From the IMG/VR virus record IMGVR_UViG_3300043464_001172, positions 1-21,902 of that record: a DNA stretch of 21,902 bases; one strand, written 5' to 3'. Every line of letters starts with the position of its first letter. Position 1 is the first letter of the stretch. The notes beneath the pieces were generated by a model. It was not told the DNA's origin, searched no databases, and worked only from the letters and a program-made list of their open reading frames with translations. A program made the position numbers and the translations under genes. Source of the stretch: a virus. Positions 15,990-21,645 of this stretch are shown here, piece after piece.

Positions 15990-18449
15990 TCAATCGATTG
16001 TCAGCGTGGAGGTGGATGCGGAGTACGTTCCCGTCGCAGAGGTGCCTGTCAGAACAACGCTAGTCGGGCTGCTTGTCGCACCCGGAAGCAGAACGTACTG
16101 CTGGCCCGATGATGGGGTTCCAGAAAACGCCACCGTCAGGGTGCTGCTAGTCAGCGAGGCCGACGTTGCCAAGCTGCCCGGGTTGGAGACGAACTGCGAC
16201 AGGTTGGCGGTTCCGCCGGACACCGACAGCGTCCCCGTCATGGTGACGGCAGACAGGTTGAGCGTGCCTGCTGCCAGGGCGATGCCGCCGGACCCTGATA
16301 GGTCACTGGCCGTCAGGTCGCCGCCTCCCGTAACTGTCAGCGTGCCAGTCACCACCAGGTCATCAAGAGACTGCGCTACGGCAGGATCCCCTGGATCTTC
16401 CTGAAGCGTCAGGGTGGCTGTGGCCGCCGACACGCGGGTCGCCGGATCGATGCCGCCATACAAAGTGCCACGCACGCGCAGGGAAGTGCCATCCAGCAGG
16501 GACAGGCCGCCGGCCGCCGCCAGGGTGGTGTCCACGGAAAGATCGACAGAGCCGTACGCCAGAACGATCTCGCCGGCAGTTTCCAGCGTCCCAACGGGAT
16601 TGAGCTTCACAGCGCCGGCGTAGCCCGCAGCGCCGAATCGCACGTTGCGATCCGCAGGGCTTCCCGGTGACGCGCCAGCCCACGTGATGTTGTCGAAGAA
16701 GACGCTGCCGTTGTCTGCGGCAACCAGCGTGATATCGCGGCTCATGCGGATCTCACCGCTCGCGAATGTCGCAACGCCAGCCGTATTGGCCCCACCAACC
16801 CACACCTCCTGCGTGCCCGCCGAGGTTAGAACATCAAAGTCGGGACTGGCGGACTGATTCTGCTCCAGCAGGAACGCCGCCACGCCTCCGCGGCCAACGG
16901 CCGTATCTCCTATGGCAACGGTGCTGCCCGCCGCTCCCGAGGCGGCTACCAGCAGCGTGCCGTTCTTTACGGTCAGTGTGCCATCGAACGCCTTGGCGGC
17001 GTTTAGTCGCCACGTTCCGACGTCGTCCTTCACCACGCTGCACTCCCCGGCGCCGGGCAGGGAGTTGATCTGCCGGACCTCGTTGGCGTGCGTGCTTGTT
17101 CCGGCCAGCGTTAGGGTTCGCGAGCAAGAGCCGGCGTGGGCTATGTTGCTCGTCAGGACCAGGGCCCCGCCGCCGCGGGCGTCGATGACGGCGTCCCCGT
17201 ACAGCGTCAGGTTGGCGTTCGTAGTCGCCCCAGAGCCACTGTAGACAAGCGTGGTAACACAGCCGAGATCGCAGTCGCTCAACCGCACGGCAAGTCCGTT
17301 GCAGGCCGAGAAGTTCAGCGTCTCGGTGGTTGTCTCCACTTCCTCCCAGCAGACGGTCACGTTCACGCGGTGGAACGTGGATCCGCAAGGAATCGGTTCG
17401 ATCTCAAAGCGGTCCCGGCACAGCGGGAAGGTGACCGTAAACGGGCATCGCTTGCCGGGTTGTCCCACAGACACGCCATGTACGCGGATGGGTGAGTCGG
17501 TTGTCCCTGTCACTGTGGCGCGGAGCGTTCCCTGGAATGCAGGAGTGCGTTTGTTGTATGGCTGGATGAAGATCAGCCCGGCCCCGGAAGACTGCTTTGT
17601 CTCGCAGCAGTTCTCCGAGAATGGCGACCGGCAATCGCCTTCGCCGGGGCATGCTGTACTCCCGAGCCCGCCCCATAGGCCCCCCGCGGAAAAGCAGTCC
17701 TCCTGCGTGGTCTGTCCAGTAGACACGCCGTCAACACAGCACTCGCCTAGGCAGCCGGACTCGCAGGTGTCGGCCGCGTATCCGACACACAAGGTGGAGT
17801 TAGTGACCTCGCATTCAACATTTCCCGCAGAGTCCTCGGTGCAACACGCCACAGGGCAGCCATCCGAACAGCACGCTGGGCTCCAGGTGTAGCCCTCGTC
17901 TGTGCAACTAGATTGCACGGTTGGCGTGCAGTTGCCGGCACCGTCGCAGCACTGTCCGGGGCACTCGTCGTACTCATTTCGCAATGTCAACACGTCGCAG
18001 GTTGGGCAACACAGCGCAGCAAGGACATCCTCGGTTGTCTCTCGGCCGCCGTTCAGCTCTGGGTCGAAGAGTTCCGGGGGCACGCAGCCACAACACGCCA
18101 GGCTTTCTCCCCAGCGGTGAAAGGTCCAGCCCTCCTCGCACGGAGCATCAGGGTCCGCATCGGAATGCCAGGTTCCGTTGCAGCAGTAGCCCTCGCCTGA
18201 ATACCAAACACCGTCACAGCACCCGCCCGTCTCGGTCTGCCAGACGCCGTCGCAACACTCGCCAGACCCGGTCTCCCACACCCCGCCACAGCACTCGCCC
18301 TCGCCGGTTCGCCAGGTGCCGTCACAGCACACGCCGCCACCGATTCGCCAGACGCCCTCGCAGCACACGCCCACCAGGCGGGGGTACTCACCGCCGCAAC
18401 AGTCGGGCTCCGGGGAGTTGCACTGAGAACAGCAGCACGCACACGGCAT
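15990..18449 (-). CDS. Cys-pair repeat and autotransporter-type beta-repeat protein, probable adhesin/appendage (819 aa)
   Basis: The ATG at 18449 is chosen because GGAGG stands six bases upstream; an in-frame ATG at 18500 lacks this. Residues 1-283 contain 47 cysteines, mostly as CC pairs. Six tandem 12-residue units of the form G-x-CC-x-G-V/T-W-x-x-x-x fill residues 27-98. A later domain (GECCVDGVSTGQTTQEDCF ... GGLWGG ... C) resembles Cys-rich surface domains. Around residues 430-510, SVVKDDVGTWRLNAAKAF then GTLTVKNGTLLVAAS looks like an autotransporter-associated beta-strand repeat, and the rest is Ser/Thr/Gly-rich beta. No signal peptide or membrane segment is seen. As the first gene of the late block it is probably a receptor-binding or decorative appendage. 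It could be disulphide-stabilised or metal-binding. Confidence 0.75.
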   Translation of the reverse strand: MPCACCCSQCNSPEPDCCGGEYPRLVGVCCEGVWRIGGGVCCDGTWRTGEGECCGGVWETGSGECCDGVWQTETGGCCDGVWYSGEGYCCNGTWHSDADPDAPCEEGWTFHRWGESLACCGCVPPELFDPELNGGRETTEDVLAALCCPTCDVLTLRNEYDECPGQCCDGAGNCTPTVQSSCTDEGYTWSPACCSDGCPVACCTEDSAGNVECEVTNSTLCVGYAADTCESGCLGECCVDGVSTGQTTQEDCFSAGGLWGGLGSTACPGEGDCRSPFSENCCETKQSSGAGLIFIQPYNKRTPAFQGTLRATVTGTTDSPIRVHGVSVGQPGKRCPFTVTFPLCRDRFEIEPIPCGSTFHRVNVTVCWEEVETTTETLNFSACNGLAVRLSDCDLGCVTTLVYSGSGATTNANLTLYGDAVIDARGGGALVLTSNIAHAGSCSRTLTLAGTSTHANEVRQINSLPGAGECSVVKDDVGTWRLNAAKAFDGTLTVKNGTLLVAASGAAGSTVAIGDTAVGRGGVAAFLLEQNQSASPDFDVLTSAGTQEVWVGGANTAGVATFASGEIRMSRDITLVAADNGSVFFDNITWAGASPGSPADRNVRFGAAGYAGAVKLNPVGTLETAGEIVLAYGSVDLSVDTTLAAAGGLSLLDGTSLRVRGTLYGGIDPATRVSAATATLTLQEDPGDPAVAQSLDDLVVTGTLTVTGGGDLTASDLSGSGGIALAAGTLNLSAVTMTGTLSVSGGTANLSQFVSNPGSLATSASLTSSTLTVAFSGTPSSGQQYVLLPGATSSPTSVVLTGTSATGTYSASTSTLTID
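18156..18371 (-). repeat. Six tandem 36-base units encoding CC-G-x-W repeats
   Basis: The units encode GVCCEGVWRIGG, GVCCDGTWRTGE, GECCGGVWETGS, GECCDGVWQTET, GGCCDGVWYSGE and GYCCNGTWHSDA. Cys-Cys, Gly and Trp are invariant; the rest varies, so the array has diverged and is under selection for the framework residues. Confidence 0.85.
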
Positions 18450-18475
18450 AGGAAGCCTCCAGACGCCCGATCCTA

Positions 18476-18491
18476 GTAGACAAGTGTCCAC
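18476..18491 (-). promoter_or_regulatory. Candidate regulatory dyad upstream of the Cys-repeat gene
   Basis: The minus strand reads GTGGACACTTGTCTAC, an imperfect dyad (GTGGACA-CT-TGTCTAC) ending 27 bases before the ATG. It shares ten consecutive bases with the site upstream of the glycosyltransferase. It may control the head of the late block. Confidence 0.4.
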
Positions 18492-18667
18492 AGGCGTCAC
18501 GGGAGGCTAGCGGGCGTTAAAACGCACGCCAGGGGCCCTGGCGACACGCGGCGGGAAAGTGGAGCGGCGGGCGGGCGGGAGCGTGAATTACCGAGGGAAA
18601 CATGTGGGGGCCACGGGGGTGAAAAAAGTCAGGAGGGGAATTGACATGATCCTGCGCGGCGACTGGG

Positions 18668-18713
18668 GGGGCCCGGGGGGCTACCTTTCGGCAAGGTTGG
18701 CCCCCCGGGCCCC
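18668..18713 (-). terminator. Strong GC hairpin (14-bp stem)
   Basis: GGGGCCCGGGGGGC at 18668-18681 pairs perfectly with 18700-18713, and ACCTT/AAGGT (18683-18687/18693-18697) extends it across a TTTCGGC-like apical loop. No U-run follows on either strand, so termination is possible but not proven; a pausing or RNA-processing structure is the alternative. Confidence 0.45.
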
Positions 18714-19685: not shown

Positions 19686-19735
19686 TCCCCCGGGGGTATC
19701 GGCCATATATCAACGGCCGACAACGGCCGACAACG
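19686..19735. repeat. Direct repeat copy 1 with tandem CGGCCGACAA units
   Basis: This 50-base segment is repeated at 19856-19905 with three mismatches, 170 bases apart. It starts TCCCCCGGGGGTATCGGCCA and ends with two tandem CGGCCGACAA units. CCCCCGGGGG is palindromic. The pair lies in the divergent intergenic region, consistent with operator sites or replication iterons. Confidence 0.85.
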
Positions 19736-19855: not shown

Positions 19856-19905
19856 TCCCCCGGGGGTATCGGCCATATGTAACCGGCCGACAACGGCCGA
19901 CAACG
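19856..19905. repeat. Direct repeat copy 2 with tandem CGGCCGACAA units
   Basis: The second copy is identical to 19686-19735 at 47 of 50 positions and lies about 54 bases before the start of the plus-strand 164-residue gene. Between the copies, about 120 bases contain further CGGCC-rich inverted segments and a TATAAG box (19761-19766). No gene is present from 19585 to 19958. Confidence 0.85.
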
Positions 19906-19958
19906 CGGGAGGTAACGTATTACTTCCTGTGTATGCGGGCAGTTTAAGGAGTCTTTCC

Positions 19959-20453
19959 ATGTACCAGCCCGAACGGCTGGAGCGCTGGAAGATGCCCCGG
20001 GATTACTTCGGTGCCGAATGGCCGGAGTACTACTTCGCGGGTGTCGGGCGTTCCAGGGATTCGGACTGCCTGGAGGAATCCAACTTCCATTCCCTGCTGG
20101 CAGCCCTTGGTGGTGAATCGGACACCGTTCGCGTTGTCCGTGAATCACACTGGGCTGTCGGCTGGGTGGAGTGGATTGCTATCCATGAGTCCGACACATG
20201 GTCGCTGAAGGTAGCCGATGGGCTGCGGATGCGGCTGGATTCTTACCCTGTCTTGGATGAGGACGATTGGTCCAGACGGGAAGACGAGGAATGCGAGCGC
20301 GTCTGGTCGGACTGCTATACGGCCAAGGAGCGTGTTCGGTATCTGCGGCGGGCCCGATGCACGGAGCGATTCCGTGATCTACGGGCAGCCGTGAATGGTG
20401 ACTGGTATGCGGCGGCGAATCTGCTGCCGTGCCCAAGTGACATCATTCACTAG
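19959..20453 (+). CDS. Conserved-looking phage protein of unknown function (164 aa)
   Basis: The ATG at 19959 has AAGGAG seven bases upstream; an earlier in-frame ATG at 19929 lacks this. The protein has YYFAGVGRSRDSDCLEESNF, then ALGGESDTVRVVRESHWAVG and WVEWIAIHESD, followed by VLDEDDWSRREDEEC and CYTAKERVRYL. I recall closely similar proteins from many metagenomic phages and plasmids, always unnamed, with the GGESDTV-VVRE-HWAVGWVEWI block best kept. It is acidic and likely a small mixed alpha/beta protein. It is the first gene of the plus-strand block and lies downstream of the repeat-rich region. No enzymatic motif is visible. Confidence 0.8.
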   Translation: MYQPERLERWKMPRDYFGAEWPEYYFAGVGRSRDSDCLEESNFHSLLAALGGESDTVRVVRESHWAVGWVEWIAIHESDTWSLKVADGLRMRLDSYPVLDEDDWSRREDEECERVWSDCYTAKERVRYLRRARCTERFRDLRAAVNGDWYAAANLLPCPSDIIH

Positions 20454-20460
20454 ACGGGAT

Positions 20461-20553
20461 TCGATCCCGGGCAGGTGGAAGCGGTACAGCCGGGCGTTAG
20501 GCCCGCGCCGAGGCCGTGCAGCCGTTAGTGCGGCGCTGCCTGCCCGGGTTCGG
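20461..20553 (+). ncRNA. Candidate structured RNA element A
   Basis: CCCGGGCAGG (20466-20475) pairs with CCTGCCCGGG (20539-20548), extended outward by three or four further pairs across one mismatch. Inside, CGGGC-GTTAG-GCCCG (20491-20505) and a GCAGC/GCTGC hairpin (20518-20522/20535-20539, partly competing with the outer stem) give a branched fold. It follows the 164-residue gene stop by eight bases. No promoter is evident, so it is probably part of the plus-strand transcript. The fold was found by eye. Confidence 0.4.
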
Positions 20554-20571
20554 TTGCCGGTTCTGCGGTGT

Positions 20572-20714
20572 CCGAATAGCCCCCTCTGGGCTGACATCAA
20601 AACGCATCCGATCAGCAGGGTGCGTAGTTTGCGGAAGATGGTACACGCGGCGTCGTTTCTAGGCGAAAGCCGAGTCGCATTCCATGCCGCATGATGCCAG
20701 AGGGTGCTATTCGG
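20572..20714 (+). ncRNA. Candidate structured RNA element B (multi-branched, upstream of gp88-like gene)
   Basis: An 18-base helix, 20572-20589 with 20697-20714, pairs at 17 positions and encloses 107 bases. Inside are an 8-bp hairpin ACGCATCC/GGGTGCGT (20602-20609/20618-20625), and an arm TGCGG/CCGCA (20630-20634/20687-20691) continued by ATGG/CCAT (20638-20641/20682-20685). This arm ends in GGC-GAAA-GCC (20662-20671), a GNRA tetraloop. A small CTGC-CGTTA-GCAG hairpin (20715-20727) follows, 15 bases before the Shine-Dalgarno. The 20454-20754 stretch has no supported gene. A cis-regulatory leader or an independent RNA are both possible. Confidence 0.5.
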
Positions 20715-20754
20715 CTGCCGTTAGCAGTCGGCTTCTCTTCATGGAGGTGCGGCA

Positions 20755-21645
20755 ATGGGTTATTCCATTGCCCGCATCGTCCAGCCGGGCAAGTCGAATA
20801 CCAAGATCGCTCACGGTGAGCGGTTTGATATTCGCTCCTGCACGGTTTCTCTTGCGGCCAGTGATTCCGCAGGGTTCAACGTCTGCCCGAGGGCTATGCC
20901 CCGGTCGCAGATCGACTCCCTGCGGGCGGCTGGCCGGACCTGGGAGCAGGTCGCAGCGGTGGCCCACTCGCGTGGGCTGTCGATGTGTACTGCCTCCTGC
21001 GTCACCAATGAGGCAGGCAAGGGGGCTGCGGATTTCGTCCGCAATCCCCGCAAGAACCTGACCCGCTGGTATCGGGAGAACCGTGCCGAGTTCACCGCCC
21101 ATCTGCTGGACGAGCTGCGGGCTGAGATTCGCAAGGCTGGCCCCGGGCAGATCGTTGCCTGCCGGCCGAATGTGGACAGCGATGTGCCATGGGAACGGAC
21201 GGTTCCTGAGATGTTTGACCTGCCGATCCGCTACTGGGACTACACCAAGGTTTCCACGCGGCTGGGCAAGACTCCCGCGAACTATCACCTGACCTATTCG
21301 GTCAACGATGGGACGCAGCCTGAAGACTGGCAGCGGGTGTACGACAGCGGCTGCAACATCGCCGTGGTGTTTGACACTCACTGGCAGCCGGGCGGCCATG
21401 AGAACGGCCGCAAGTTCGGGCAGTTGCCGACATGGTTCACCGATGCCAACGGGTATCGGTGGCGAGTGGTCGATGGCGACAAGTCCGATTTCCGGTTCCT
21501 GGACGATGGTCCGGTGTGCGTTGGGCTGCGGCTGAAGGGGTTCTCCTTCGGCCGGTGGATGGCCCGGATGTCGGGATTCGCCCAGCGGGTGCCACGTACG
21601 GTGCGTGGCCTGTTCTCCAAGGTTCACCCGTCCAGGGCAGCGTGA
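20755..21645 (+). CDS. gp88-like (DUF7227-type) phage protein (296 aa)
   Basis: The ATG has GGAGG seven bases upstream. The layout matches the phage gene product 88 family known from mycobacteriophages and many environmental phages. An N-terminal NVCPRAM (Cys44) is followed by SMCTASC (Cys78, Cys82), then a helical stretch with NLTRWYRENRAEFTAHLLDE, RPNVDSDVPWE, PIRYWDYTKVSTRLGK, NYHLTYSVNDGT and NIAVVFDTHWQPGG. The cysteine cluster suggests metal binding, perhaps an iron-sulphur site; biochemical function is unknown to me. Length is normal. The final 40 residues are basic. It is preceded by the structured RNA region and followed after 48 bases by the next gene. Confidence 0.8.
   Translation: MGYSIARIVQPGKSNTKIAHGERFDIRSCTVSLAASDSAGFNVCPRAMPRSQIDSLRAAGRTWEQVAAVAHSRGLSMCTASCVTNEAGKGAADFVRNPRKNLTRWYRENRAEFTAHLLDELRAEIRKAGPGQIVACRPNVDSDVPWERTVPEMFDLPIRYWDYTKVSTRLGKTPANYHLTYSVNDGTQPEDWQRVYDSGCNIAVVFDTHWQPGGHENGRKFGQLPTWFTDANGYRWRVVDGDKSDFRFLDDGPVCVGLRLKGFSFGRWMARMSGFAQRVPRTVRGLFSKVHPSRAA

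Follow-up and report, generated by a model that had tools for sequence, protein, structure and literature searches.

Phage genomes have been combed for proteins, and their structured RNAs are poorly known. The window analyzed here (the whole stretch of 21,902 nucleotides, positions 1 to 21,902 of IMG/VR record IMGVR_UViG_3300043464_001172) raises the question of what a folded, gene-free stretch does immediately upstream of a GP88-family gene. An earlier note on this DNA had read it as two tandem multi-branched folds, forming a structured non-coding RNA or leader that regulates the GP88-like gene and possibly represents a new class. We find instead a modular array of RNA units, placed between two early genes as follows.

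19917-19942, plus strand: motif GTATTACTTCCTG.GTATGCGGGCAG, kept 5' of the first early gene in relatives; probable promoter or leader, judging by its position
19959-20453, plus strand: gene 1, 164 aa, weak phrog_4313 match; its stop codon abuts the array
20455-20559, plus strand: unit A, inner domain A6 (also in L012), closing helix 20455-20475/20539-20559
20560-20565, plus strand: linker GTTCTG between units; its flanks, as read from the sequence, can alternatively form a linker hairpin
20566-20720, plus strand: unit D, inner type D2
20566-20589, plus strand: 5' strand of helix P1, paired with 20697-20720 at 22 of 24 positions
20590-20594, plus strand: conserved bulge GCUGA, putative pseudoknot strand, complementary to UCAGC at 20612-20616
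20595-20599, plus strand: 5' strand of helix P1b, paired with 20692-20696, with covariation across inner types
20602-20625, plus strand: hairpin P2, 8 bp, with stem changes in L027, L030, L031 and L032
20612-20616, plus strand: UCAGC in the P2 hairpin loop, putative pseudoknot partner
20692-20696, plus strand: 3' strand of P1b, partner of 20595-20599
20697-20720, plus strand: 3' strand of P1, partner of 20566-20589
20711-20731, plus strand: terminal hairpin, then CTTCTCTT; its 5' strand is common with the base of P1, the two being mutually exclusive there
20743-20749, plus strand: Shine-Dalgarno GGAGGTG of the downstream gene
20755-21645, plus strand: gene 2, GP88 family, 296 aa (PF17338, E 2e-23)

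The folds in the window

Both folds of the earlier note are present, although as separate units of a modular tandem array and not as a single leader. The 10-bp outer stem pairs CCCGGGCAGG (20466-20475) with CCTGCCCGGG (20539-20548), the 18-base helix pairs CCGAATAGCCCCCTCTGG (20572-20589) with 20697-20714 around a single C.U mismatch, and the MFE fold contains three further hairpins of that note: one of 8 bp (20602-20609/20618-20625), one with the GAAA loop and a small one 5' of the Shine-Dalgarno. That first reading had missed the outward extension of the closing helices to 20455/20559 and 20566/20720, the second helix, P1b, and a probable pseudoknot between the bulge and the P2 loop, a kind of pairing that RNAfold is unable to show. 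The motif CGTTAG is indeed located at 20495, 20523 and 20719, but it is common to L012 and some linkers only, so its recurrence is probably a hairpin-loop coincidence rather than a signal. Integron attC-like sites, suggested by GTTAG(GC), were also set aside: by eye, GTTAG is not retained in most units, and neither a partner core site nor an integrase was seen.

The 321 nt from 20440 to 20760 fold at -156.3 kcal/mol (z = -4.16), which none of 100 shuffles equaled. When the entire window, which is GC-rich, was scanned in segments of 150 nt, those of the array gave z scores of about -3.4 to -5.0, and several segments elsewhere, some of them coding, were equally low or lower (-7.7 at 19701, -5.2 at 18701 and -4.9 at 20801). 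Since other segments fold as well or better, folding energy alone is weak evidence that does not single out the array, and the case for it rests on comparison between phages. The segment at 19701, which has the strongest fold z of the whole window, lies in a divergent intergenic region with two 50-nt direct repeats that are 94% identical (19686-19735 and 19856-19905) and rich in GGCCGACAACG. On the minus strand, positions 15990-18500 encode an 836-aa protein with N-terminal Cys-rich tandem CCxGVW repeats.

That the array is non-coding is borne out by 12 aligned D1 units, whose indels are not multiples of three and which have no reading frame in common, ruling out a conserved protein-coding sequence. 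Nothing in Rfam matches 20400-20800 up to E = 10, and at the gathering threshold no family, riboswitches, ribozymes, GOLLD and ROOL included, was found in the window or 12 related loci. ARAGORN identified no tRNA or tmRNA cloverleaf in the window or 35 loci, and no promoter was found within the units.

A common frame with exchangeable inner domains

A search with the GP88 protein led to two phage contigs of about 60 kb, and DNA patterns led to further contigs. We classified 45 arrays from related uncultured phages, possibly of freshwater origin, including that of the window (independent arrays are fewer, since some contigs are near-identical), plus L112, a 55 kb contig in a Pirellulaceae MAG. 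Four complete or near-complete phage contigs carry one array apiece. Arrays hold one to four units, begin at or near a small gene's stop codon, always lie on the sense strand and end 26-35 nt before the next ATG in 45 of 45 cases. BLASTN of annotated phages returned no matching record, and the terminase of the window has only distant relatives among them. A search for the linker in genome contigs gave four matches, three of which (L113-L115) look like chance.

All units have the base motif CGG..YCGA/..CGG.TGCCG (CGG-NNN-YCGA / CGG-YTG-CCG), with a variable helix above it. The closing helices are 20-24 bp long, with 19-24 of 24 positions paired across units. At positions 11-22, 96.7% are paired in 10 distinct helices, compared with a mean of 55.5% when whole 3' arms were shuffled among units, and none of 5000 such shuffles matched the observed pairing. 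In L003, L017 and L031 the base itself is altered on both strands, CTGAA/TTCAG replacing CCGAA/TTCGG. At the level of sequence, this comparison shows that compensatory changes have preserved the outer frame helix, whereas the inner domains have been swapped among related phages. Together with the zero Rfam matches, the covarying helices give good support to the proposal of the earlier note that this is a structured RNA outside the catalogued classes.

The frame encloses ten or more D inner domains that are unlike one another, as well as several types of A inner domain. D1-D6 and D10 share the closing helix CCGAATAGCCCCCTCTGG or a variant differing at the inner end only, and the other closing helices (D7-D9, unit B and unit A) enclose further inner domains. 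The commonest inner type, D1 (13 of 45 arrays), has a core in which 50 of 67 columns are invariant, compared with three of 30 in one variable arm. D2 of the window and D3, D4, D5 and D7 have a common layout of P1, a 5-nt bulge GCUGA (GCUGC in D4) and P1b, whose pairings differ and yet always match (CATCA/TGATG, CATC/GGTG, CACAC/GTGTG, CATAT/ATATG, CAGTGC/GCATTG, CTGTGGT/GCCACAG and CTGTGC/GCACAG). A perfect complement of the bulge occurs within the unit in 10 of 12 sequences, with a chance expectation of 5-17% each, and in D4 the changed bulge GCTGC is accompanied by its complement GCAGC; this match and the compensatory change make the putative pseudoknot likely.

Several arrays have further features. 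In L028 (minus strand), a small ORF (MDYMSEYDWWVDPD...) that has start signals of its own sits between units A and D, as if the array takes up genes too. At the same position in L112 (minus strand) is an insert with a T-arm-like stretch (GCGGGTTCGATCCCCGTAGCGGC), in which ARAGORN calls no tRNA. An inner domain at L026:10622-10714 contains two direct copies of GGCTAGGTACCAGAAGAGG.

Neighboring genes, hammerheads and function

The next gene after 44 of the 45 arrays is GP88 or phrog_2554-like (phrog_2554-like 24, GP88 type iii 13, GP88 type i 7), and the remaining array, L081, precedes an unrelated 111-aa protein. GP88 and phrog_2554-like proteins had no detectable similarity in our comparison, and AlphaFold models of both families were too poor for use (pLDDT 39.6 and 40.0). 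Genes 5' of the arrays vary too. A permutation test found inner type to be independent of the type of gene that follows (p = 0.86, n = 21), making gene-specific regulation unlikely. A riboswitch or gene-specific leader would have an aptamer tied to one gene class; with three families (the two GP88 subfamilies and the phrog_2554-like one) and one unrelated gene downstream, the proposed leader regulating the GP88-like gene is not established. Of five records of other phages with GP88/phrog_2554 genes, we folded the 5' gaps of the two in which these are long (Bradyrhizobium BDU-MI-1, z -2.1; Caulobacter S2B, z -1.3), and these two lend no support to a general link of structured RNA with these genes.

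In nine relatives, a type II hammerhead core lies between the GTATTACTTCCTG..GCATGCGGGCAG motif and the gene 5' of the array:

L027:3417-3470, plus strand
L023:6860-6913, plus strand
L012:1505-1558
L016:12684-12735
L029:1000-1051
L019, L030, L112 and L129, minus strand

By Rfam model RF02276, L027 scores 39.0 bits (cut-off 37), and L012, L016 and L029 fall just under the cut-off (33.8-35.1). These hammerheads mostly abut the stop codon of a tiny gene, gene0, and the gene0 family is followed directly by an array in L064 and L094 and by a hammerhead in L012 and L029. L027 (about 3128-3416) and L129 (minus strand) contain more long helix-closed elements, e.g., CTTCCGAGCAGG...CCTGCTTGGAAG, between the promoter-like motif and the hammerhead, apparently RNA units without an intervening gene. 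Judged by the core GAAA...GUC...CUGAUGA, three stems and a match to RF02276, the window array is not a type II hammerhead. Perreault et al. (PMC3088659) proposed that long phage transcripts are divided into shorter, gene-length mRNAs by hammerheads that flank prophage genes.

Mainly because the array occupies the same kind of place as these hammerheads, we tentatively prefer to read it as an intercistronic element that processes or insulates the early polycistronic transcript. Like hammerheads, its units would sever or protect the early mRNA at gene junctions, either through host RNase III acting on the nearly perfect closing helices or through self-cleavage. The mRNAs on both sides would then end in protective hairpins, the terminal hairpin before the Shine-Dalgarno capping the 5' end of the downstream mRNA, and small RNAs made of the inner domains would be released. 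RNase III requires dsRNA of about 20 bp or more, a length that the closing helices reach; cutting by this enzyme is a prediction. The processing reading is favored by the fixed placement between cistrons with constant spacing to the ATG, by the pairing of the closing helices, by the hammerheads in nine relatives together with the prophage proposal, by a terminal hairpin at all 29 distinct array ends and by the independence of inner type from downstream gene, as expected for a generic junction element. Against it are the strong conservation of the D1 core, superfluous in a mere processing stem; the placement nearly always before one of two gene families, to which a generic element need not be tied; the lack of resemblance between any unit and the known self-cleaving ribozymes of Rfam; and the fact that the early operon of the window phage has no hammerhead of its own.

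In another reading, the inner domains would themselves be the product, namely small RNAs acting in trans (decoys, antisense or protein-binding RNAs, possibly directed against host defense) in a constant frame that enables their processing-out and exchange. This is possible but rather unlikely. The diversity of D and A inner domains in one frame, the conserved D1 core with a hypervariable arm beside it, the recurring putative pseudoknot and P1b, and the one to four units per array all agree with it; a search with a D1 model had no hits among 149 genomes from the putative host family, a weak counterargument as that search had no positive control. In its boldest form, which we would likewise give a minor chance, this would be an undescribed RNA system of pseudoknotted cassettes, freed from the early mRNA by a new ribozyme type or by RNase III, acting in trans on the infected cell and with inner domains swapped like gene cassettes.

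The terminal hairpin raises another alternative. It is 7-10 bp long, reuses the last base motif and is followed by at least five T in eight in 19 of the 29 ends; it could be an attenuator, or could provide a protected 5' end and an unstructured site before the Shine-Dalgarno. As a transcription attenuator or riboswitch-like leader, the hairpin and the pyrimidine tract behind it would stop transcription, or make it pause, ahead of gene 2, and the last closing-helix base and the terminal hairpin, which share UUCGGYUGCC, would be mutually exclusive there. Even if we consider it unlikely, attenuation is a serious rival: a terminator scan flags 20711-20731, the distance to the start codon is fixed and the array almost always lies 5' of GP88/phrog_2554 genes. 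However, the T tract is broken by C and is absent in 10 of 29 ends, the inner domains do not follow the downstream gene and the L081 array precedes an unrelated one. Full switching is doubtful because the two have no more in common than the weak outer 8-9 nt of a helix exceeding 20 bp.

It is improbable that the array is primarily a recombination joint, in which conserved unit bases and linkers supply DNA homology for swapping early genes or RNA cassettes in a role like that of T4-like mobile cassettes. The reassortment of array types with the genes on either side, and base motifs that are near identical between phages, speak for this reading. Against it, P1 and P1b show compensatory changes that include G-U pairs, which imply that pairing in the RNA is under selection, and the array always lies in sense; any such exchange may be a by-product instead of the function.

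Host and relation to known systems

The portal protein of the window is 78% identical to that in the array-bearing Pirellulaceae MAG. Portal relatives occur in three of 149 Pirellulaceae genomes and in no other among 294 genomes across the phylum, the latter searched at a stricter E-value. A host in the Pirellulaceae (Planctomycetota) is plausible, but as a lead only, because viral contigs can be binned into a MAG. With its constant frame and exchangeable inside, the array would be a modular RNA element near real hammerheads, in phages probably linked to this family, and would represent either a new way of dividing polycistronic phage mRNA or a store of swappable functional RNAs.

The array shares features with four known systems. 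Type III toxin-antitoxin RNAs (ToxI; RCd22 of AbiF, PMC12373285) are likewise structured, repeated RNAs 5' of a protein gene. Those systems have near-identical tandem RNA repeats 5' of a ToxN/CptN/TenpN or Abi_2 RNase, whereas array units are 90-230 nt long and unlike inside, and their neighbors match only PF17338, phrog_1617, phrog_1392 or phrog_2554, the adjacent GP88 and phrog_2554-like proteins having no toxin or Abi_2 match; we therefore rejected this assignment. The PeSL-type mobile regulatory cassettes of T4-like phages, consisting of a promoter and a simple stem-loop, are also structured intergenic cassettes tied to phage gene exchange, but the array has tandem RNA frames with covarying helices and no promoter was found in it. 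Between the early genes of T7, RNase III processing sites similarly form long helices in a polycistronic mRNA; each is one irregular hairpin that has neither tandem frames nor an exchangeable inner domain, and cutting of the array units is predicted. Compared with type II hammerheads, the array units have no hammerhead core, are much larger and carry an exchangeable inner domain, and their cleavage is something we infer. Nevertheless, the hammerheads between (pro)phage genes (RF02276; PMC3088659) are, like the array, intercistronic and in sense orientation, may be present in multiple copies around genes, and are found in the very same operons of array-bearing relatives.
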